Position numbers and translations under genes: made by a program. DNA of 64,000 bases from Cordylochernes scorpioides. Lineage: Eukaryota; Arthropoda; Arachnida; Pseudoscorpiones; Chernetidae. Under the pieces are notes generated by a model that worked only from the letters and a program-made list of their open reading frames with translations, ran no database searches and was not told the origin of the DNA. Every line of letters begins with the position of its first letter. Position 1 is the first letter of the stretch. Shown here one piece after another: positions 2,079 through 62,342 of this stretch. The stretch spans positions 136,401,255-136,465,254 of the forward strand of contig CP092864.1 of assembly GCA_030710605.1 (NCBI GenBank). The letters are read 5' to 3'.

Positions 2079-2129
2079 AATTGCTTTTTGCACATAAACT
2101 CTTGCGTACTTGTATAACTTCATTCAAGG

Positions 2130-2988
2130 CAAACAATTAAGTCCACTATAACATTTTCACATGTCTCCAGATACAATTAAGTCCACTATAGCATTTTCAC
2201 ATGTCTCCATAAATAATTAAGTCCACTATAACATTTGCACATGTCTCCAGAAACAATTAAGTTGACTATAACATTTTTTTTACATGTCTCCAGAAACAAT
2301 TAAGTTGGTTATAACATTTTTTACATGTCTGCAGAAACAATTAAGTTGGTTATAACATTTTTTACATGTCTCCAGAAACAATAGTATCCACTACAAACCT
2401 TTTCACACATCTCCAAGCATACAATTAATTTGACTATAACATTTTCACATGTCTCCAAGCATACAATTAAGTTGACTATAACATTTTCACAGTTCTCCAA
2501 GCACATACAATTAATCTGACTATAACATTTTCACATGTCTCCAAGCATACAATTAAGTTGACTATAACATTTTCACATGTCTCCAAGCATACAATTAAGT
2601 CCACTATAACATTTTCACATGTCTCCAAGCACATACAATTAATTTGACTATAACATTTTCACATGTCTCCAAGCATACAATTGTGTCCACTCTAACATTT
2701 TCACATGTCTCCAAGCATACAATTAAGTCCACTATAACATTTTCACATGTCTCCAAGCATACAATTAAGTCCACTATAACATTTTCACATGTCTCCAAGC
2801 ATACAATTAAGTCCACTATAACATTTTCACATGTCTCCAAGCATACAATTAAGTCCACTATAACATTTTCACACGTCTCCAAGCATACAATTAAGTCCAC
2901 TATAACATTTCACATGTCTCTAAGCATACAATTAAGTCCACTATAACATTTTCACATGTCTCCAGAAACAATTGTGTCCACTACAAAC
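2130..2988. repeat. 42 bp tandem array seeded on an exon end and donor
   Basis: About 20 units of roughly 42 bp, containing cacatgtctccaagcatac and its variant ccagaaacaa. On the minus strand each unit resembles the last 19 or so bases of the exon at 2989 plus the first 22 bases of its intron. The copy at 2391-2416 is nearly identical to the true junction. Toward 2140 the units become more diverged. Confidence 0.93.
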
Positions 2989-3114
2989 CTTTGCACACGT
3001 CTCCAGAAGTAGAAAGCTCATGGCCAGAAGGACATTGGCAGAAGAAGGAGCCCGGAGTGTTCACACATGTTCCCCCACGGCAGAGTCCTCTGTTCCTCGT
3101 ACATTCATTGATAT
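2989..3114 (-). CDS. FBN: Fibrillin exon: cbEGF, last one in window
   Basis: 126 bp; [26 protein letters not shown]. Acceptor gtttcag. The donor AAAG|gtttgt is weak, and this exon end plus donor is the apparent seed of the 42 bp array just downstream. No further exon is visible down to position 1. Confidence 0.9.
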
Positions 3115-6406: not shown

Positions 6407-6532
6407 CTGTGCAGTTGATGTTTTCAGAGTCAAGTACAAAGCCTGGATTACATTGACAACTGAAACTTCCAATGGTGTTCTGGCATCGCCCGTTATAGCA
6501 GAGAGTTGGGAAATGGGCGCATTCATTGATAT
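6407..6532 (-). CDS. FBN: Fibrillin exon: cbEGF after TB3
   Basis: 126 bp; [31 protein letters not shown]. Counterpart of the cbEGF right after TB3 in human fibrillin. Donor ACAG|gtaaga. The acceptor tgttgtccag and first 13 coding bases are the seed of the 8.5 kb array that fills the upstream intron. Confidence 0.93.
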
Positions 6533-9500
6533 CTGGACAACAAACATTTATTGATATCTGGACAACATACATTCATTGATATCTGGACAACAAACATTCA
6601 TTGATATCTGGACAACAAACATTCATTGATATCTGGACAACAAACATTCATTGATATCTAGACAACAAATATTCATTGATATCTGGACAAAAAACATTCA
6701 TTGATATCTGGACAACAAACATTCATTGATATCTGGACAACAAACATTCATTGATATCTGGACAACAAACATTCATTGATATCTGGACAACATTCATTGA
6801 TATCTGGACAACAAACATTCATTGATATCTGGACAACAAACATTCATTGATATCTGGACAACAAACATTCATTGATATCTGGACAACATTCATTGATATC
6901 TGGACAACATTCATTGATATCTGGACAACAAACATTCATTGATATCTGGACAACAAACATTCATTGATATCTGGACAACATTCATTGATATCTGGACAAC
7001 AAACATTCATTGATATCTGGACAACAAACATTCATTGATATCTGGACAACATTCATTGATATCTGGACAACAAACATTCATTGATATCTGGACAACAAAC
7101 ATTCATTGATATCTGGACAACAAACATTCATTGATATCTGGACAACAAACATCCATTGATATCTGGACAACAAACATTCATTGATATCTGGACAACAAAC
7201 ATTCATTGATATCTGGACAACAAACATTCATTATATCTGGACAACAAACATTCATTGATATCTGGACAACAAACATTCATTGATATCTGGACAACATTCA
7301 TTGATATCTGGACAACATTCATTGATATCTGGACAACAAACATTCATTGATATCTGGACAACAAACATTCATTGATATCTGGACAACATTCATTGATATC
7401 TGGACAACAAACATTCATTGATATCTGGACAACAAACTTCATTGATATCTGGACAACAAACATTCATTGATATCTGGACAACAAACATCCATTGATATCT
7501 GGACAACAAACATTCATTGATATCTGGACAACAAACATTCATTGATATCTGGACAACAAACATTCATTGATATCTAGACAACAAATATTCATTGATATCT
7601 GGACAACAAACATTCATTGATATCTGGACAACAAACATTCATTGATATCTGGACAACAAACATTCATTGATATCTGGACAACAAACATTCATTGATATCT
7701 GGACAACATTCATTGATATCTGGACAACAAACATTCATTGATATCTGGACAACAAACATTCATTGATATCTGGACAACAAACATTCATTGATATCTGGAC
7801 AACATTCATTGATATCTGGACAACAAACATTCATTGATATCTGGACAACAAACATTCATTGATATCTGGACAACAAACATTCATTGATATCTGGACAACA
7901 AACATCCATTGATATCTGGACAACAAACATTCATTGATATCTGGACAACAACATTCATTGATATCTGGACAACCAAACATTCATTGATATCTGGACAACA
8001 AACATTCATTGATATCTGGACAACAAACATTCATTGATATCTGGACAACATTCATTGATATCTGGACAACATTCATTGATATCTGGACAACAAACATTCA
8101 TTGATATCTGGACAACAAACATTCATTGATATCTGGACAACATTCATTGATATCTGGACAACAAACATTCATTGATATCTGGACAACATTCATTGATATC
8201 TGGACAACAAACATTCATTGATATCTGGACAACAAACATTCATTGATATCTGGACAACAAACATTCATTGATATCTGGACAACAAACATCCATTGATATC
8301 TGGACAACAAACATTCATTGATATCTGGACAACAAACATTCATTGATATCTGGACAACAAACATTCATTGATATCTGGACAACAAACATTCATTGATATC
8401 TGGACAACAAACATTCATTGATATCTGGACAACAAACATATTCATTGATATCTGGACAACATTCATTGATATCTGGACAACAAACATTCATTGATATCTG
8501 GACAACAAACATTCATTGATATCTGGACAACAAACATCCATTGATATCTGGACAACAAACATTCATTGATATCTGGACAACAACATTCACTGATATCCTG
8601 GACAACATTCATTGATACTTTGGACAACATTCATTGAAATATCTGGACAACAAACATTCAATTGAATATCTGGATCAACAACAAACATTCATTGATATCT
8701 GGACAACATTCATGATATCTGGACAACAATCATTCATTGATATCTGGACAACAAACATTCATTGATGTCTGGACAACATCATTGATATCTGGACAACAAA
8801 CATTCATTGGATATCTGGACACAAACATTCATTTGATATCTGGACAAACAAACATTCATTGATATCTGGACTACATTCAGTGATATCTGGACAACATTCC
8901 TTTGATATCAGGACAACAAACATTCATTGATATCTGGACAGCAAACATTTCATTGATATCTCGGGACAACAAACATTCATTGATATCTTGGACAACAAAC
9001 ATTGCATGATATCAGTACAACATTCATTGATATCTGGACAACATTCATTGATATCTGGACAACATTCATTGATATCTGGAACAACATTCATTGATATCTG
9101 GACAACAAACATTCATTGATATCTGGACAACAAACATTCATTGATATCTGGACAACATTCATTGATATCTGGACAACAAACATTCATTGATATCTGGACA
9201 ACAAACATTCATTGATATCTGGACAACAAACATTCAATGATATCTGGACAACATTCATTGATATCTGGACAACATTCATTGATATCTGGACAACTAACAT
9301 TCATTGATATCTGGACAACAAACATTCATTGATATCTGGACAACAACATCATTGATATCTGGACAACAAACATTCATTGATATCTGGACAACAACATTCA
9401 TTGATATCTGGACAACATTCATTGATATCTGGACAACAACATTCATTGATATCTGGACAACAAACATTCATTGATATCTGGACAACAAACATTCATTGAT

Positions 9501-12500
9501 ATCTGGACAACAAACATCTCATTGATATCTGGACAACAACATTCATTGATATCTGGACAACAAACATTCATTGATATCTGGACAACAAACATCATTATAT
9601 CTGGACAACAAACATTCATTGATATCTGGACAACAAACATTCATTGATATCTGGACAACATTCATTGATATCTGGACAACATCATTGATATCTGGACAAC
9701 AAACATTCATTGATATCTGGACAACAAACATTCATTGATATCTGGACAACATTCATTGATATCTGGACAACAAACATTCATTGATATCTGGACAACAAAC
9801 ATTCATTGATATCTGGACAACAAACATTCATTGATATCTGGACAACAAACATCCATTGATATCTGGACAACAAACATTCATTGATATCTGGGACAACAAA
9901 CATTCATTGATATCTGGACAACAAACATTCATTGATATCTAGGACAACAAATATCTTGATATCTGGACAACAAACATTCATTGATATCTGGACAACAAAC
10001 ATTCATTGATATCTGGACAACAAACATTCATTGATATCTGGACAACATTCATTGATATCTGGACAACAAACATTCATTGATATCTGGACAACAAACATTC
10101 ATTGATATCTGGACAACAAACATTCATTGATATCTGGACAACATTCATTGATATCTGGACAACAAACATTCATTGATATCTGGACAACAAACATTCATTG
10201 ATATCTGGACAACAAACATTCATTGATATCTGGACAACAAACATCCATTGATATCTGGACAACAAACATTCATTGATATCTGGACAACAAACATTCATTG
10301 ATATCTGGACAACAAACATTCATTGATATCTGGACAACAAACATTCATTGATATCTGGACAACAAACATTCATTGATATCTGGACAACATTCATTGATAT
10401 CTGGACAACATTCATTGATATCTGGACAACAAACATTCATTGATATCTGGACAACAAACATTCATTGATATCTGGACAACATTCATTGATATCTGGACAA
10501 CAAACATTCATTGATATCTGGACAACAAACATTCATTGATATCTGGACAACAAACATTCATTGATATCTGGACAACAAACATTCATTGATATCTGACAAC
10601 AAACATTCATTGATATCTGGACAACAAACATCATTGATATCTGGACAAACAAACATTCATTGATATCTGGACAACAAACATTCATTGATATCTGGACAAC
10701 AAACATTCATTGATATTCTGGACAAAAAACATCATTGATATCTGGACAACAAACATTCATTGATATCTGGACAACAAACATATTCATTGATATCTGGACA
10801 ACATTCATTGATATCTGGACAACAAACATTCATTGATATCTGGACAACAAACATTCATTGATACTGGACAACAAACATCAATTGATATCTGGACAACAAA
10901 CATTCATTGATATCTGGACAACAACATTCATTGATATCTGGACAACAAACATTCATTGATATCTGGACAACATTCATTGATATCTGGACAACATTCATTG
11001 ATATCAGGACAACAAACATTCATTGATATCTGGACAAGCAAACATTCATTGATATCTGGACAACAACATTCATTGATATCTGGACAACAAACATTCATTG
11101 ATATCTGTACAACATTCATTGATATCTGGACAACATTCATTGATATCTGGACAACATTCATGATATCTGGACAACATTCATTGATATCTGGACAACAAAC
11201 ATTCATTGATATCTGGACAACAAACATTCATTGATATCTGGACAACAAACATTCATTGATATCTGGACAACAAACATTCTTGATATCTGGACAACATTCA
11301 TTGATATCTGGACAACATTCATTGATATCTGGGACAACATTCATTGATATCTGGACAACAAACATTCATTGATATCTGGACAACAAACATTCATTGATAT
11401 CTGGACAACAAACATTCATTGATATCTGAACAACATTCATTGATATCTGGACAACATTCATTGATATCTGGACAACATTCATTGATATCTGGACAACATT
11501 CATTGATATCTGGACAACAAACATTCATTGATATCTGGACAACACTTCATTGATATCTGGACAACAAACATTCATTGATATCTGGACAACAAACATTCAT
11601 TGATATCCTGGACAACAAACATATTCATTGATATCTGGACAACATACATTCATTGATATCTGACAACAAACATTCATTGATATCTGGATAACAAACATTC
11701 ATTGATATCTGGACAACAAACATTCATTGATATCTGGACAACATTCATTGATATCTGGACAACATTCATTGATATCAGGACAACAAACATTCATTGATAT
11801 CTGGACAGCAAACATTCATTGATATCTGACAACAAACATCATTGATATCTGGACAACAAACATTCATTGATATCTGTACAACATTCATTGATATCTGGAC
11901 AACATTCATTGATATCTGGACAACATTCATTGATATCTGGACAACATTCATTGATATCTGAACAACAAACATTCATTGATATCTGGACAACAAACATTCA
12001 TTGATATCTGGACAACAAACATTCATTGATATCTGAACAAACATTCATTGATATCTGGACAACATTCATTGATATCTGGACAACAAACATTCATTGATAT
12101 CTGGACAAACATTCATTGATATCTGGACAACATTCATTGATATCTGGACAACAAACATTCATTGATATCTGGACAACAAACATTCATTGATATCTGGACA
12201 ACATTCATTGATATCTGGACAACAAACATGCATTGATATCTGGACAACAAACATTCATTGATATCTGGACAACAAACATTCATTGATATCTGGACAACAT
12301 TCATTGATATCTGGACAACAAACATTCATTGATATCTGGACAACATTCATTGATATCTGGACAACATTCATTGATATCTGGACAGCATTCATTGATATCA
12401 GGACAACAAACATTCATTGATATCTGGACAACAAACATTCATTGATATCTGGACAACAAACATTCATTGATATCTGGACAACATTCATTGATATCTGGAC

Positions 12501-15064
12501 AACAAACATTCATTGATATCTGGACAACAAACATTCATTGATATCTGGACAACAAACATTCATTGATATCTGGACAACATTCATTGATATCTGGACAACA
12601 TTCATTGATATCAGGGACAACAAACATTCATTGATATCTGGACAGCAAACATTCATTGATATCTGGACAACAAACATTCATTGATATCTGGACAACAAAC
12701 ATTCATTGATATCTGTACAACATTCATTGATATCTGGACAACATTCATTGATATCTGGACACACATTCATTGATATCGTGGACAACATTCATTGATATCT
12801 GGACAACAAACATTCATTGATATCTGGACAACAAACATTCATTGATATCTGAACAACATTCATTGATACTGGACAACATTCATTGATATCTGGACAACAA
12901 TCATTCATTGATATCTGGACAACATTCATTGATATCTGGACAACATTCATTGATATCTGGACAACAAACATTCATTGATATCTGGACAACAAACATTCAT
13001 TGATATCTGGACAACATTCATTGATATCTGGACAACAAACATGCATTGATATCTGGACAACAAACATTCATTGATATCTGGACAACAAACATTCATTGAT
13101 ATCTGGACAACATTCATTGATATCTGGACAACAAACATTCATTGATATCTGGACAACATTCATTGATATCTGGACAACATTCATTGATATCTGGACAGCA
13201 TTCATTGATATCAGGACAACAAACATTCATTGATATCTGGACAACAAACATTCATTGATATCTGGACAACAAACATTCATTGATATCTGGACAACATTCA
13301 TTGATATCTGGACAACAAACATTCATTGATATCTGGACAACAAACATTCATTGATATCTGGACAACAAACATTCATTGATATCTGGACAACATTCATTGA
13401 TATCTGGACAACATTCATTGATATCAGGACAACAAACATTCATTGATATCTGGACAGCAACATTCATTGATATCTGGACAACAAACATTCATTGATATCT
13501 GGACAACAAACATTCATTGATATCTGTACAACATTCATTGATATCTGGACAACATTCATTGATATCTGGACAACATTCATTGATATCTGGACAACATTCA
13601 TTGATATCTGGACAACATTCATTGATATCTGGACAACAAACATTCATTGATATCTGGACAACAAACATTCATTGATATCTGGACAACATTCATTGATATC
13701 TGGACAACAAACATTCATTGATATCTGGACAACAAACATTCATTGATATCTGGACAACAAACATTCATTGATATCTGGACAACATTCATTGATATCTGGA
13801 CAACAAACATTCATTGATATCTGGACAACATTCATTGATATCTGGACAACAAACATTCATTGATATCTGGACAACATTCATTGATATCTGGACAACATTC
13901 ATTGATATCTGGACAACATTCATTGATATCTGGACAACAAACATTCATTGATATCTGGACAACAAACATTCATTGATATCTGGACAACAAACACCCATTG
14001 ATATCTGGACAACAAACATTAATTGATATCTGGACAACAAACATTCATTGATATCTGGACAACAAACATTCATTGATATCTGGACAACAAACATTCATTG
14101 ATATCTGGACAACATACATTCATTGATATCTGGACAACATACATTCATTGATATCTGGACAACAAACATTCATTGATATCTGGACAACAAACATTCATTG
14201 ATATCTGGACAACAAACATTCATTGATATCTGGACAACATTCATTGATATCTGGACAACAAACATTCATTGATATCTGGACAACAAACATTCATTGATAT
14301 CTGGACAACAAACATTCATTGATATCTGGACAACAAACATTCATTTATATCTGGACAACATTCATTCATTGATATCTGGACAACATTCATTGATATCTGG
14401 ACAACATTCATTGATATCTGGACAACAAACATTCATTGATATCTGGACAACAAACATTCATTGATATCTGGACAACAAACATTCATTGATATCTGGACAA
14501 CATTCATTGATATCTGGACAACATTCATTGATATCTGGACAACATTCATTCATTGATATCTGGACAACAAACATTCATTGATATATGGACAACATTCATT
14601 GATATCTGGACAACATTCATTGATATCTGGACAACATTCATTGATATCTGGACAACAAACATTCATTGATATCTGGACAACAAACATTCATTGATATCTG
14701 GACAACAAACATTCATTGATATCTGGACAACATTCATTGATATCTGGACAACATTCATTGATATCTGGACAACAAACATTCATTGATATCTGGACAACAA
14801 ACATTCATTGATATCTGGACAACATTCATTGATATCTGGACAACATTCATTGATATCTGGACAACAAACATATATTCATTGATATCTGAACAACATACAT
14901 TCATTGATATCTGGACAACATTCATTGATATCTGGACAACAAACATTCATTGATATCTGGACAACAAACATTCATTGATATCTGGACTCATTCATTGATA
15001 TCTGGACAACAAACATTCATTGATATCTGGACAACAAACATTCATTGATATCTGGACAACAAAC
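6533..15064. repeat. 8.5 kb tandem array of 21/25 bp splice-acceptor units
   Basis: About 360 units by length. Two unit lengths alternate: 25 bp and 21 bp, differing by the four bases aaac. Read on the minus strand each unit is a T-rich stretch ending tccag followed by ATATCAATGAATG, identical to the acceptor and first 13 coding bases (D-I-N-E-C) of the fibrillin exon at 6532. The array touches that exon and makes up about 97% of the intron. Predicted small ORFs inside it are repeat artefacts. Blocks at about 8580-9000 and 10590-11700 show many single-base indels. Confidence 0.97.
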
Positions 15065-15336
15065 AAATATGATTTTTGACCATTAAAACAGATGGTTTTC
15101 TTTTTTTTTTTTTCTAGTTGAAAACACACATAGTTCAATTTTCCAAAAATATTTAGAATATATTGCTACAAATATATTTTTAAAATTGGTGTGCTGGTAA
15201 TAGAAATGTGAAAAATTTTAGCGTAACTTTTCTTTTATGAAAATAAAATATTTTGTATCTGTTTGAAGCTAGGATTGATTTTGAAAGAGATATTGTGATT
15301 GAGAAACCTTCAAAATTAAAAATAAACAAAACTTAC
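15065..15336. other. AT-rich intron, nothing recognised
   Basis: Unique-looking AT-rich sequence between the large array and the TB3 exon donor. Confidence 0.6.
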
Positions 15337-15417
15337 CGGTCAAAAGTCCAAGTTCTCCTCTACCTCGTCCATCGAAGGCGTAGCCATGTCCCTTGATGCA
15401 CAACTCAGCATGGGCCT
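15337..15417 (-). CDS. FBN: Fibrillin exon: TB3 domain, last part
   Basis: 81 bp; A-E-L-C-I-K-G-H-G-Y then a Gly/Arg/Leu-rich linker, ending T/D into the next cbEGF. Its acceptor, attgtacag, is the first unit of a 41 bp tandem array. Donor ACCG|gtaagt. Confidence 0.85.
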
Positions 15418-15858
15418 CTGTACAATGTTTAGGTCTGTTGTACCAGTGCTACAGGTTGCTGTACAATGTTTAAGTCTGTTGTACCAGTGCTACAGGGTGC
15501 TGTACAATGTTTAAGTCTGTTGTACCAGTGCTACAGGGTGCTGTACAATGTTTAAGTCTGTTGTACCAGTGCTACAGGGTGCTGTACAATGTTTAAGTCT
15601 GTTGTACCAGTGCTACAGGGTGCTGTACAATGTTTAAGTCTGTTGTACCAGTGCTACAGGGTGCTGTACAATGTTTAAGTCTGTTGTACCAGTGCTACAG
15701 GGTGCTGTACAATGTTTAAGTCTGTTGTTACAGTGCTACAGGGTGCTGTACAATGTTTAAGTCTATTGTACCAGTGCTACAGGGTGCTGTACAATGTTTA
15801 AGTCTGTTGTACCAGTGCTACAGGGTGCTGTACAATGTTTAAGTCTGTTGCACCAGTG
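15418..15858. repeat. 41 bp tandem array starting at a splice acceptor
   Basis: Nearly 11 copies of a 41 bp unit starting ctgtacaatgtttaag. The first unit begins at the intron base next to exon 15337-15417, so every unit contains a copy of that acceptor (aaacattgtacag on the minus strand). Copies are almost identical. Confidence 0.95.
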
Positions 15859-16007
15859 CTACTGAGGCTCACATAGTGTATAAGGCCATTGTCTCACTGC
15901 TAAATGATAATATTTAGAGCGCTGGCACATAATATAGGCCATTACACTACTGTTATTCCAAGTTGAACAGGTGGCGTACCACGCGCAGTACACCCTTGCT
16001 ACCTTAC

Positions 16008-16394: not shown

Positions 16395-16675
16395 TATATA
16401 CACTCATGGACAAAACTTAAGGAAGTTGTACCTTTTAGTATGTATATCGGGACTCAGACAAAAAATCTGAAAGATACACTCATAGATAACACTTAAGGAA
16501 GTTGTACCTTTTAGCATGTATATCGGGATTCAGACAATATCTCTGAAAGATACACTCATGGACAAAACTTAAGCAAGTTGTACCTTTTAGTATGTATATC
16601 GGGATTCAGACAATATCTCTGAAAGATACACTCATAGATAACACTTAAGGAAGTTTTACCATTTAGCATGTATAT
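16395..16675. repeat. cactcatggacaaaac repeat cluster
   Basis: Four tandem partial copies of a unit with acactcatggacaaaactt, tagtatgtatatcggga and cagacaatatctctgaaa. Confidence 0.8.
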
Positions 16676-17206
16676 CATACTTCTCTATTTAAAACATTTT
16701 AAAATGAAAAGATAAAACTTTTTTTTTCTTTTATTATTTATTAATCAACCAGGCGCGATATTGAAATATTTGCATCTATTACAGAGGAAACAAACAAATT
16801 AGAACTTAGAATTAAAAATATTTACAAATTTACATGTATTAATCAACAGAGTTCATAAAATTTATATAGACAAGGTGGCTTCTTCTTCTTTCTTATCTCC
16901 ACTCAATCATATTAGGGTATCAAGCTTGTAAAGCTTGTTGATGGTGTCTGCTGGGGATGAGTAGAGCTCATCAATGGATGAGTCAATACAGTCAATACAA
17001 GGTGGCTGATGTAAGAGAGTTAAAACATTTAGATCAGGGAATAATCAATGTCTCACTTCTGTAAAGTTCTGACCGTCATTGATAAGGTGAAGAGCAGTCT
17101 GTTCAGTTTCTCTGCAGGAACAATTTGGTATTTCTGATAGAACTCTTAAAATCTCTTAAGGAAGAGAAATCTAAGAAGAACCAACTACACAGATTGTGAT
17201 ATTTAC

Positions 17207-21595: not shown

Positions 21596-21668
21596 CTGCA
21601 CATTTAAAACACATTATGTTAGCTCAATACTGCCATCTGTGATACTGTTAAATATTAAGAAAAAAGAA

Positions 21669-22874: not shown

Positions 22875-23190
22875 TATTTTTTATTATCCCTAGTACATGT
22901 GGTAAAAGACATGATAATCATGGAGGGTAGAAGTTGGCAACTGCTTTTACTGTAAGTGCACCACATGTCTATGCATGTGAAAAGCAGTTCGACTTTTGCG
23001 CTTACATGTACCCAGAATCCTATTTGGTTATTTGCACTCGCTGGTGAAATTGGACTTTTACAAGAATCGAGAATCATTGGTGCATTTTTAATTTCAAATT
23101 TAAAAAAAGTGCCCAATATGGGATTTGATCCTGGGTCATAGAGATCAAAAAACAATGGTTTAGAACAATCGTCCATGACCCCACTGTTAA
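22875..23190 (-). mobile_element. tRNA-derived SINE (inverted)
   Basis: Tail ttattatccctagtac at left, head gtccatgacccc at right; the head is followed by fibrillin intron sequence later duplicated. Confidence 0.82.
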
Positions 23191-23420
23191 ATATACTATA
23201 AGGCAATAATGAGCTATCAATACACACGAAATACTTACCAATCTCAGAGCAAAAGAGCATTGGAGCATTTTTTTATTTAGAAAAAAAAGTGTCCAATGTG
23301 GATTTGATCATGGGTCATAGCGGTCAAAAACTGACAGCTTAGACCACTTTGTCACAATCCCACTGTTTTATATACTATAAGGTAACAATGAGCTATCTAT
23401 ACAGAATAAATACTTACCAA
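23060..23420. repeat. 179 bp duplication copying an exon donor
   Basis: Two copies of SINE head, intron text (tatactataaggcaa) and tacttaccaatctcagagca. The second copy is the true exon edge (13-odd coding bases plus donor of hybrid 2). The first, at 23232-23251, is a decoy joined to SINE sequence. Confidence 0.88.
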
Positions 23421-23558
23421 TCTCAGAGCAAGGTTTGCAAGGACTACCCCAGGCCTGGCCAATGGTAGTACAGCATTCTGAGCGCAGCATTGGAACCTTG
23501 ACATCATTCTCGCAGTGGCCATTTTGTATAGTTAGCCAACATGATCCTCGTCTGTTGT
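23418..23558 (-). CDS. FBN: Fibrillin exon: hybrid domain 2, first part
   Basis: 141 bp; R-G-S-C-W-L-T-I, then S-E-C-C-T-T-I-G-Q-A-W-G-S-P-C-K-P-C. The double cysteine and the G-x-C-W opening identify hybrid 2. Acceptor gttccag, donor ATTG|gtaagt. The last 13 or so exon bases with the donor are duplicated about 179 bp downstream in the intron. Confidence 0.91.
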
Positions 23559-27089: not shown

Positions 27090-27360
27090 AAGTACACTCA
27101 TGGACAAAGTCTTTGATGTTGCTGATCGTCTATTTCTTTGAAGGAGACAGAGGGTGTTCACACTTGGTTATCTTTTGTCTTTAATAAAGGTCACTGTGTA
27201 TCAAATATATTTCAGAGTTATTGTCTGAATCCCGATATACATGCTAATAGGTACAATTTCCTTAAGTTTTGTCCATAAGTGTATCTTTCAGAGTTATTGT
27301 CTGAATCCCGATATACATACTAAAAGGTACAACTTCCTTAAGTTTTGTCCATGAGTGTAT
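27090..27360. repeat. cactcatggacaaa repeat, both orientations
   Basis: Left end tacactcatggacaaag, inner tcactgtgtatcaaata, and two right ends ttttgtccatgagtgta. Looks like a small DNA transposon with inverted ends. Confidence 0.75.
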
Positions 27361-29389: not shown

Positions 29390-29559
29390 CTACACAGCAC
29401 AGCAGGATCTACAGTGTGACACTGTAAAATATATAAGATATACAGCAAGATACACAGTAAAAGTTATCTAAAAGTACTGGAGGCTTTTGAGAAATGTCAT
29501 TTGGTTTCAATCCTAATGAATGAAAAACCCTTATTTGTACCTCCTAGGTACAGCTGGTA

Positions 29560-30210
29560 CATTCCTAGAAGCAGATGGCCTCCCAGACCTTTAGGTCCAT
29601 AAGCCGGCAGCTGGTACAGTAGACACAGGAGGAGCTATGAAACAACACTAACAAGATTTAAAACAGGCCATCTCAAGCCATTGAAGATAGAAAATAACAA
29701 CAAAATCTACCCCACTTGTCCAAAATGTAGCTTATCGCCTGAAGCTCCACAACATATTTTGCCTTGTATTAGATGTACTAAACAGGATTTTGAGAGAGTC
29801 CACTGCTTATGCTAGTAAACTACATGCTGTGCTGAAAAAAAAAAGACTTAGGATCAAGGAGGATTGAACACCTCACCTGACAACCTCCAGATCAGTAATG
29901 GTACATGACGACAGGCATCAACGTAGAACTAAAAGTACTGGAAGGTTTTACAAATGCTATTTGGTCTCAAACCTAATTAATGAAAAACCCCTATTTTTAC
30001 CTTATAAACACAGCTGGTACAGTGGAGTGGACCCAGAAAGAACTCTGAACCACTGACAGCATCAAACAACACTAACAAGATTTAGAACAGGCCATCTCAA
30101 AAGCCTTTGAAGATAGGCAATATTGCCCAAAATGTAGCTTGGGAGAGACCACTGCTTATGCTAGTAAACTACATGCTGTGCTGAAAAGAAAGACTTAGAA
30201 TAAAGGAGGA
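29560..30210 (+). pseudogene. Two decayed LINE 3' fragments of the same family
   Basis: 29645-29870 encodes T-R-F-K-T-G-H-L-K-P-L, Y-P-T-C-P-K-C and P-Q-H-I-L-P-C; 30060-30200 is a shorter second copy. Frames are broken. Together they fill the intron beyond the exon at 29389. Confidence 0.75.
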
Positions 30211-30287
30211 TTGAACTTCTCAGCTGACAACTTCCAGATCAGTGATGGCACACGACAAGAGATTCAAGGCATCAATGTAGAACTTAC

Positions 30288-30413
30288 CAGTGCAGACTTT
30301 CCCAGTTGGATCAATCTGAAAGCCAGGATTGCAGACACACCGATAGCTGTCCTTCAAATTCTCACAAGCTCCATTGGGACAGATGGAAGGGAATACAATA
30401 CATTCATTGATAT
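30288..30413 (-). CDS. FBN: Fibrillin exon: cbEGF domain after TB2
   Basis: 126 bp; [20 protein letters not shown]. Close to the cbEGF directly following TB2 in human fibrillin. Acceptor ttgttccag, donor ACTG|gtaagt. Confidence 0.92.
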
Positions 30414-30894: not shown

Positions 30895-31300
30895 TGATAC
30901 ACTCATGGACAAAATTTAATGAAGTTTTACCTTTAAGCATGTATATCAGTATTCAGACAATAACTCTTGAAAGATACACTCATGGACAAAACTTAAGGAG
31001 GGTGTACATTTTAGCATGTATATCGGGATTCAGACAATAACTCTGAAAGCTATTACAGTGATCTTTATTAAAGACATACGAGATAACCAATATACAATCA
31101 TGGAGACAAAACTTAAGGAAGTTGTACCTTTAAGCAGGTATATCAGGATTCAGACAATAACTCTGAAAGATATTACAGTGACCTTTGTTGAAGACACAAG
31201 ATAACCAAGTGTGAACAAAATTGTCTCTGTTTCCTTCGAAAAAAATAGATGACTGGCGACAACAAAGACTTTTCACTTCTTTAAGTTTTGTCCATGAGTG
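30895..31300. repeat. cactcatggacaaa repeat
   Basis: Three left ends in tandem, interior agatgactggcgacaac, right end ttttgtccatgagtgta. Confidence 0.78.
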
Positions 31301-32056: not shown

Positions 32057-32077
32057 ATGTGAAGAAGAGATACTTGC

Positions 32078-32200
32078 CTATACATCTCTGTCCGTCAGAC
32101 GTCAGCTTGTATCCAGGGTTGCAGATACACTTGAAGCTTCCATCACCATTGACACACTTGCCATTGGTGCACATCCCCGATCCATCGCATTCGTTGTAAT
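32078..32200 (-). CDS. FBN: Fibrillin exon: cbEGF domain (GC donor)
   Basis: 123 bp; D-Y-N-E-C, C-V-N-G-D-G-S-F-K-C, C-N-P-G-Y. Acceptor ttttcag. The donor is ATAG|gcaagt: a GC instead of GT but with an otherwise perfect U1-pairing consensus, the hallmark of GC-AG introns. No in-phase GT donor is present nearby. Confidence 0.9.
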
Positions 32201-55137: not shown

Positions 55138-55566
55138 CCTATACTCATAAACAAAACTTAAGGAAGAAATACCTTTCAGTATGTATATTGAGATTCAGAC
55201 AATAACTGAAAGATACACTCATGGACAAAACTTAAAGAAGTTGTACCTTTTAGCATGTGTATTGGGATTCAGACAATAACTCTGAAAGATACACTCATAA
55301 ACAAAACTTAAGGAAGAAATACCTTTCAGTATGTATATCGGGATTCAGACAATAACTCTGAAAGATACACTCATGGACAAAACTTAAGGAAGTTGTACCT
55401 TTTAGCATGTATATCGGGATTCAGACAATAACTCTGAAAGATATTTGACTTCTCTATCTTGTGTGTCTTCAATAAAGATCACTGTAATATCTTTCAGAGT
55501 TATTGTCTGAATCCCGATATGCATCCAAAAAGGTACAACTTTCTTAAGTTTTGTCCATGAGTGTAT
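55138..55566. repeat. cactcatggacaaa repeat, tandem left ends
   Basis: Four left-end units, then one right half ending gttttgtccatgagtgta. Confidence 0.8.
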
Positions 55567-57042: not shown

Positions 57043-57142
57043 NNNNNNNNNNNNNNNNNNNNNNNNNNNNNNNNNNNNNNNNNNNNNNNNNNNNNNNNNN
57101 NNNNNNNNNNNNNNNNNNNNNNNNNNNNNNNNNNNNNNNNNN
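57043..57142. other. Assembly gap (100 N)
   Basis: Exactly 100 Ns, the conventional placeholder for a gap of unknown size. Left flank is a truncated palindromic element (tctgatgatgg in reverse, ending gtact); right flank is the start of a fibrillin exon. The missing sequence must hold at least the rest of that exon and its donor. Confidence 0.99.
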
Positions 57143-57158
57143 ATGCATTCATTGATAT
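57143..57158 (-). CDS. FBN: Fibrillin cbEGF exon, cut by assembly gap
   Basis: Only the first 16 bases remain. They follow a T-rich acceptor ending gtgcag and read D-I-N-E-C in the phase-1 frame, the start of a cbEGF exon. The remainder falls in the 100-N gap. Position between the TB exon and hybrid 1 means the real protein has a cbEGF here, like the EGF preceding hybrid 1 in vertebrates. Confidence 0.75.
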
Positions 57159-60999: not shown

Positions 61000-61880
61000 C
61001 TATAAAAGACAGTTTTCATTGCCAAAATGACCATTTATATCAATTAGCTACTCTCTGGTAAGAATATATATCACTTAATTAAATAATACAGCAAGTTTCT
61101 AGATATGAGTTTCTTTTCATTTCAGCATTGCATTCTCAAGCTTTCATGTATTTCTGTTGTTATACAGGAGTATAAAGCGAACAGTGTTAATCACCAAAAT
61201 GACCATTTATATCATTTAGCTACTCTCTGGTAAGAAGACAGACATCTCTTAATTCAATAATACAGCAAGTTTCTAGATATGAGTTTCTTTTCATATTTTT
61301 TTATGATATTCTCAAGCTTTCAGGTATTTATGCTGTTATACAGAGTACAAAGCGAACAGTGTTAATCACCAAAATGACCATTTATATCATTTAGCTACTC
61401 TCTGGTAAGAAGACATCTCTTAATTCAATAATACAGCAAGTTTCTAGATATGAGTTTCTTTTCATATTTATCAATGATATTCTCAAGCTTTCAGGTATTT
61501 ATGCTGTTATACAGAGTACAAAGTGAACAGTTTTAATCACAAAAATGACCATTTATATTATTTAGCTACTCTCTGGTAAGAAGACACCTATCTTAAATTA
61601 GGTTTCTAGATACGAGTTTCTTTTCATATTTTTTAATACTATCTCACACACAAGCTTTCAGGTATTTATGCTGTTATACAGAGTACAAAGTGAACAGTTT
61701 TAATCACAAAAATGACCATTTATATCAATTAGCTACTCTCTGGTAAGAATAAACCTATCTTAAATTGGGTTTCTAGATATGAGTTTCTTTTCATATTTTT
61801 TAATGCTATCTCACACACAAGCTTTTAGGTATTTCTGCTGTTATACAGAGTATAAAACGAACAATAATGAAGGCTGAACA
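61000..61880. repeat. ~172 bp tandem array, 5 copies
   Basis: Period about 172 bp, anchored on gaccatttatat near 61029, 61201, 61374, 61547 and 61714. The first unit continues directly from a cagtagaacatactcc-type inverted-repeat element, so the array seems to have grown from part of that element. Confidence 0.88.
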
Positions 61881-61960
61881 TTTGGTAGGTTGTGATTCTA
61901 GTGTAGCCATGATGTAACAACAACTTAGTGAGTGAAGAATGTCGAGTTAGCTAGACTCAC

Positions 61961-62113
61961 GTTGCGGAGGCTGTGGACAGAGTTCACACCAAAGTTCCCC
62001 CCATCCTGCGGATCCCTTCATACAACAACATTGGCGGCGAGTCATGTTGAAAGGTCGTGACTCAGAGCATCTCCCCAGTTCTGAGATCTGGTAGCATGGG
62101 TTGGTTCTAGTGT
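61961..62113 (-). CDS. FBN: Fibrillin exon: TB domain, first part
   Basis: The most N-terminal exon in the window. It encodes the cysteine-rich start of a TB (8-Cys) domain: N-P-C-Y near the start, then the diagnostic triple cysteine R-Q-C-C-C and W-C-E-L-C-P. It is bounded by an AG acceptor just above 62113 and the donor CAAC|gtgagt below 61961. Length 153 bp, phase 1-1. Vertebrate fibrillins have EGF domains, not a TB, just before hybrid 1, so this domain marks an architectural difference. Confidence 0.88.
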
Positions 62114-62162
62114 CTGGACAAACAACATGGCTGCTATCTTAACATCTCTAGGCTGAAGTAAT

Positions 62163-62342
62163 GCAGTAGAACCTCTCTTTAGCGGACACCCTGCTAGAGG
62201 ACACCTCTCCACAAAGGACAGTTTTCATTTGCAAAATTACCATTTTTACTATTTGGCAACTCTCCGGTAAGAGGACACCTATTCCTAAAGGACTCTGTGG
62301 CTCTGCAATTAGATGTCCTTTACAGGAAGGTTCTACTATATT
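62163..62342. repeat. Inverted-repeat element (gtagaacctcc family)
   Basis: cagtagaacctctct to ggaaggttctactata, just upstream of the first TB exon's acceptor. Confidence 0.78.

Follow-up and report, generated by a model that had tools for sequence, protein, structure and literature searches.

The fibrillin gene of the pseudoscorpion Cordylochernes scorpioides carries in one of its introns a kilobase-scale tandem array, each unit of which reproduces the acceptor site of that intron together with the start of the adjoining exon. The unit is private to the fibrillin locus, where it is found in two copies of unequal length, and arrays of related design recur at other exon-intron junctions. With a probability of about 0.7, the array is a near-neutral junction minisatellite that would be removed with the intron, misuse of its repeated acceptors being cleared by nonsense-mediated decay (NMD).

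The window, which is the whole stretch of 64,000 bp that was analysed, lies on contig C2 (208,110,490 bases) of the C. scorpioides genome, and the 2.62 Gb in 24 contigs were searched. The host gene of the array is fibrillin, the best solved-structure match of the joined exons being FBN1 2w86 (E 5.3e-44). The features around the array are as follows.

6407-6532, minus strand: authentic exon encoding a cbEGF, 126 nt and phase 1-1; the last unit of the array includes its first 13 bases
6520-15065, minus strand: 25/21-bp minisatellite of 359 units, each an acceptor (TTTGTTGTCCAG or TTGTCCAG) plus the first 13 exon bases (ATATCAATGAATG)
15066-15336, minus strand: unique 5' part of the array-bearing intron, containing a full yUnAy branch-point-like TTAAT at 15082-15086
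15337-15417, minus strand: exon upstream of that intron, 81 nt and phase 1-1, covering the end of a TB domain; donor gtaagt at 15331-15336

A single array was called at 6520-15065 by TRF (period 25, 359.1 copies, score 12988), and parsing resolved it into 359 head-to-tail units, the last of which is the real exon edge. The 358 spacings between units are mostly 25 bp (207) or 21 bp (94). On the coding (minus) strand the consensus unit is TTTGTTGTCCAG|ATATCAATGAATG, 25 bp long, and the 21-bp form lacks one TTTG. The exon 6407-6532 begins with ATATCAATGAATG, encoding (G)D-I-N-E-C-A-H-F..., and is followed by a gtaaga donor. The array extends 13 bp into this exon, and the unit contains both intronic and exonic bases. 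The initial annotation had described the unit as the acceptor of the gene itself joined to the beginning of the exon, which the parse and the edge of exon 6407-6532 bear out; the upstream donor that it placed next to 15337 was likewise found, belonging to the exon 15337-15417 with gtaagt. Its statement that every unit reproduces the junction is slightly too strong, as the array and the unit identity are real but AG|ATAT is absent from 17 of the 359 units, in some through small indels only. AG|ATATC acceptors in the array number 337, comprising 336 decoys and the real one, and CCAG|ATATC occurs 320 times within the stretch. The units at 8600-9050 are rich in single-base indels, with a mean edit distance of 1.55 in one 20-unit bin as compared with 0.15-0.7 elsewhere; perhaps these are read errors, or perhaps an old degenerate block.

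An exact genome-wide search with the 25-mer returned 280 matches, which as whole counts divide into 174 within the window and 106 within a copy of the region ~135 kb away. The reversed 25-mer, used as a control, had no match in the 2.62 Gb, and the repetition is far beyond chance. When up to three mismatches were allowed, 507 matches were obtained, of which 504 by count lie in the window (326, with an exon start at 57146 among them) and the copy (178). Three therefore fall outside both; among the matches listed there are two such, C2:136332080 and C2:136397398, both less than 70 kb from the window, and C2:136332080 is the counterpart of window position 57146. The match at 57146 was considered as an array and rejected, since it marks where another DINEC exon begins, truncated by an assembly gap. 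The 41-bp and 42-bp units of two neighbouring arrays are also restricted to the window and its copy (19 matches as 10 plus 9, and 25 as 10 plus 15, respectively). The unit had been sought elsewhere as a possible dispersed satellite, which would be present at many loci; as its exact matches occur only here and in the copy, it is not dispersed, and the 25-bp unit is private to the fibrillin locus and its copy.

The copy (loci L039 and L040) aligns to window 258-24991, with two flank alignments 99.35 and 99.51% identical, and six of the eight exons compared are identical between the two, the array-bearing exon 6407-6532 among them. The lengths of the arrays differ. The 25-bp array has 359.1 copies (8.5 kb) in the window and 181.1 (4.3 kb) in the copy, and the corresponding values for its neighbours are 21.0 and 26.0 (42-bp array), 10.9 and 9.9 (41-bp array), and 13.8 and 10.5 (94-bp array); a 179-bp duplication shows no length difference (1.8 in both). 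Comparison of unit-coded strings revealed ~60 common units at the 5' end, one of them changed, and a further five beside the exon, with much of the middle different.

One further feature bears on the position of the copy on the scaffold.

57043-57142, no strand: 100-N assembly gap, on the right of which the sequence restarts ~126 kb back

The first bases past this gap match C2:136332080, and the next contig opens inside another DINEC fibrillin exon; window 61800-62300, right of the gap, matches C2:136337017-136337517 at 99%. Because the scaffold restarts in this way, the preferred reading of the copy is that it represents the other haplotype, set behind the assembly gap, and the two alleles then appear to differ two-fold in array length. 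The gene order across 57043-57142 is then probably false, as the gap appears to join two haplotypes. Both copies do stand in order on one scaffold, as would be expected of a real segmental duplication in which 359 and 181 units belong to paralogues and not to alleles, but the restart at 99% identity makes this improbable. Of the 30 LDLa loci, 24 fall into 12 pairs whose members have equal E-values and lie 27-104 kb apart, one pair being inverted, and these pairs also argue against a duplication inasmuch as they fit uncollapsed haplotypes, though they may include local gene copies. More widely, the assembly may contain many uncollapsed haplotypes (LDLa loci L047-L076). That the array or its length is an assembly artefact is more improbable still. 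The many single indels near 8600-9050 are such as read errors would give, and the region is repeated on the scaffold across a gap, but two separately placed copies have the array at the same place, with common ends and different lengths.

To score the acceptors, a matrix was built from 33 acceptors of other genes (33 of 38 LDLa and Sushi acceptors, doubtful calls being left out); the fibrillin acceptor listed at 21596 was left out of the matrix scores, as its alignment was one base off. The authentic acceptor scored 10.01 as compared with an array median of 10.80, and decoys scoring at least as high as the authentic acceptor numbered 207 of 336 in the window array and 117 of 176 in the copy. 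The real acceptor is not marked out by splice-site strength.

The consequences of decoy use for the reading frame are uniform. As the initial annotation stated, the 21-bp unit translates in frame as D-I-N-E-C-C-P and the 25-bp unit leads to TGA. The in-frame 21-bp units speak for a productive role of the decoys, whereby D-I-N-E-C-C-P heptads would extend the exon and diversify the protein. This is scarcely credible, given that the exon is left open only from the authentic one among the 337 AG|ATATC sites and that the units nearest the exon (10 in the window, eight in the copy) are all of 25 bp. Use of any decoy would give a stop before the exon end (336/336 in the window, 176/176 in the copy). 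Productive in-frame exon extensions were rejected on this ground, and the exon extensions of variable length proposed in the initial annotation are, as productive forms, unsupported. Since the 25-bp unit passes through all three frames and CAATGA gives a stop, the universal stop is not read as design.

No extra constraint on the AG dinucleotides of the decoys is visible. Among the 207 25-bp units, one substitution was found at the A and one at the G as compared with a mean of 2.6 per position, numbers that are too few to test, and in the 94 21-bp units five of the nine substitutions fall on the A of the AG. The only full yUnAy near the array (the TTAAT at 15082-15086) lies 32 nt upstream of the first array acceptor, which is itself 8.5 kb from the exon, and this motif may be the ancestral branch point. 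In the range searched, no full yUnAy precedes the authentic acceptor, nor does one precede 13 of the 33 other acceptors. With the yUnAy placed before the first and not the last acceptor, a rule of the first AG after the branch point would predict decoy use, an argument against use of the authentic acceptor that is weak in view of those 13 acceptors.

Four further features relate to other junctions of the same gene.

15418-15862, minus strand: second array, 41 bp x 10.9, which stops exactly at the acceptor of exon 15337-15417
2129-3005, minus strand: donor-side array, 42 bp x 21, the unit of which copies the last bases of exon 2989-3114 and its donor
2989-3114, minus strand: cbEGF exon; the 42-bp array reproduces its 3' edge
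23102-23431, minus strand: 179-bp duplication (1.8 copies), which includes the exon end and donor GCTCTGAGATTG|GTAAGTATTT of exon 23418-23558

The acceptor-bearing array before exon 15337-15417, absent from the initial annotation, contains 11 TTGTACAG acceptors including the real one, and all ten decoys give a stop. Its unit repeats the acceptor AG and contains no exon base, and the array is thus not a boundary-spanning array in the strict sense of the mirages discussed below. In the 42-bp array, AAGGTTTGT is kept in only one of the 17 further copies found; the exon 2989-3114 had been entered as 2991-3114, 2 bp off, in this count, in the comparison with the copy and in the edge survey below. 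Outside fibrillin, 20 Sushi exons were chosen from the match list before their flanks were seen, and a junction array was found at one of them (L093, on C15), where the last 19 exon bases and the donor are repeated 7.1 times at 41 bp. The counterpart copy of L093, 98.9% identical, also has 7.1 copies. None of the 32 LDLa edges tested is spanned by an array. Junction arrays thus recur at three more fibrillin junctions and at one of 20 Sushi exons.

Elsewhere in the window, the exon 32078-32200 appears to have a GC donor (TAG|GCAAGT; 32072-32077), and the intron 29390-30287 contains, as judged by eye, a partial duplication with ~350 bp spacing, beginning immediately past the donor of exon 30288-30413. 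Tandem units of 76 bp that resemble one another (ACTCATGGACAAAACTTAAGGAAG...) are present at 16398-16676, 27206-27360, 30896-31049 and 55143-55443 and in some LDLa loci; these 76-bp ACTCATGGACAAAACTTAAGGAAG units are a dispersed element with internal tandem copies.

Among the 34 edges of the 17 fibrillin exons that lie below 40 kb (those at 49-62 kb being left out), three are spanned and one is touched by an array, as compared with 0.68 expected in the 56-bp zone (P 0.005), and there is no excess at 16-130 bp (1 vs 1.39 expected). A junction-specific origin argued from the window alone was rejected, as chance alone would place average-sized founding units across some of the edges. For these two reasons, other exons were surveyed. 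The survey covered 67 edges (32 of 36 LDLa and 35 of 40 Sushi edges, nine doubtful ones being left out), with one locus taken per LDLa pair and the 12 pair mates not counted. One edge is spanned, and exon-facing array ends lie at 0-15 bp in four cases (0.34 expected, P 4e-4) and at 16-130 bp in 12 (2.42 expected, P 9e-6), edges that are not independent since the surveyed exons are the best domain matches, several per gene. Beyond 130 bp, 22 array ends occur in 70,166 bp. Taken jointly, spanning arrays and those at 0-15 bp number five as compared with 1.18 expected (P 0.007), and a recount restricted to arrays of at least three copies gave 11 within 0-130 bp as compared with 1.13 expected (P 3e-8). 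The LDLa edges are significant alone (0-15 bp, 3 vs 0.13, P 3e-4; 16-130 bp, 8 vs 0.93, P 6e-6), and the Sushi edges alone are not (0-15 bp, 1 vs 0.23, P 0.21; 16-130 bp, 4 vs 1.66, P 0.087).

This clustering may reflect a tendency of arrays to arise near junctions, or to persist better at such places while the remaining sequence is diluted by transposons. The smallest gaps between exon and array are -19, 3, 7, 12 and 14 bp on the donor side and 24, 36, 36, 41 and 42 bp on the acceptor side, a pattern that fits selection sparing the branch-point and pyrimidine zone. The fibrillin acceptors at 6532 and 15417 are exceptions, which are possible because each unit brings its own acceptor. An LDLa exon at L074 (C14:3012787 region) is followed, 12 nt past its donor, by a 28-bp array with at least 52 copies, and a 1444-aa open frame is reported at the array site. 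We tentatively raise the idea, possible though short of probable, that minisatellites of this genome are preferentially born or sheltered at exon-intron junctions, that splice-site-copying arrays form a genome-wide class outside chordates, and that fibrillin offers a natural experiment on the choice of one acceptor among more than 300 equals.

The main array was probably founded by a short tandem duplication over the 3' end of the intron and the first 13 exon bases, with slippage or unequal exchange then producing growth to hundreds of units. As such growth would insert copies between the old intron and the exon, the first unit would keep the old upstream intron and the last the exon, and hence the 3' splice signal of the present exon would lie wholly within array units. 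Exon definition is assumed here as the basis for acceptor choice. The exon-adjacent acceptor would still be used if it is paired with the donor 126 nt downstream; the whole array would then leave with the intron, and mistaken use of a decoy would lead to a premature stop and NMD. As there is no sign of decoys being kept functional, the array is taken to be near-neutral.

In an alternative account, the decoys compete with the real acceptor and the array acts as a length-dependent rheostat, so that in longer alleles NMD product would increase or the 126-nt exon would be skipped, in frame, more often, with altered fibrillin dose or domain number. This account is consistent with the 207 of 336 decoys scoring no lower than the real site, with the existence of two array lengths and with the exon being 126 nt and of phase 1-1, so that its skipping is in frame. 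It also has a precedent in the human ABCA7 intron-18 VNTR, for which more exon 19 skipping and lower expression are reported with a longer VNTR (PMC5954066). The splice-junction minisatellites of amphioxus, by contrast, are reported to leave regular splicing undisturbed (PMC3087553, PMC3902484), and the decoy AGs in fibrillin show no sign of being kept. We therefore consider the rheostat unlikely and prefer the near-neutral minisatellite, from which any effect would be expected to be a length-dependent loss or skipping of the in-frame exon, as in ABCA7.

The 181- and 359-unit apparent haplotypes could provide a system for the study, at the RNA level, of 3' splice site choice among hundreds of sites of equal strength, in which it would become visible whether the spliceosome takes the AG that first follows the branch point or relies on exon definition. 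Junction arrays recur at several sites of fibrillin and also in a second gene of this genome. Mirage-type arrays, found so far in lancelets and one human gene in the literature searched, are very probably extended here to another phylum; a search of the literature for mirages under that name found none outside cephalochordates.

The initial annotation knew of no described intron satellite of this kind, yet two such systems are on record. Amphioxus mirages are minisatellite-like tandem duplications spanning intron/exon boundaries at 5' and 3' edges, in Adh3, the globins BflGb6 and BflGb9, troponin C and PGBD5, and the BflGb6 mirage differs between haplotypes (6 vs 3 units) (PMC3087553, PMC3902484). 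The fibrillin unit similarly spans the junction, with 13 exon bases in its consensus. Both edge types are likewise represented, by the acceptor at 6532 and by the donors of exons 2989-3114 and 23418-23558 and of the Sushi exon L093. Length is also unstable in the 25-, 42- and 41-bp arrays if the copies are read as haplotypes, with no difference between copies in the 179-bp duplication or the L093 array. Unlike the amphioxus mirages, the arrays described here have an arachnid host, reach 359 and 181 units (8.5 and 4.3 kb), affect four junctions of one gene, and are clustered near exon edges in other genes.

In the ABCA7 VNTR the unit is 25 bp long and begins with the donor GT, one allele measures 9711 bp, and retention of one unit amounts to ~2% on one reading of the order of the figures (PMC5954066). 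It shares with the fibrillin array the 25-bp unit, the position adjoining an exon, a splice site in each unit, kilobase alleles and length polymorphism; the fibrillin array differs in repeating mainly an acceptor with 13 exon bases. An effect on splicing has been measured only in ABCA7. A duplication carrying splice signals is also the basis of intron gain through tandemly duplicated AG/GT exon segments (the Rogers model; potato RdRp, PMC4974935), but the fibrillin intron lies at an ordinary phase-1 domain boundary and no new intron is seen. The fibrillin array belongs to the known kind represented by mirages and the ABCA7 VNTR and is extreme in scale; what is new is the pseudoscorpion host, the hundreds of acceptor decoys, the recurrence at other junctions and the clustering at exon edges.
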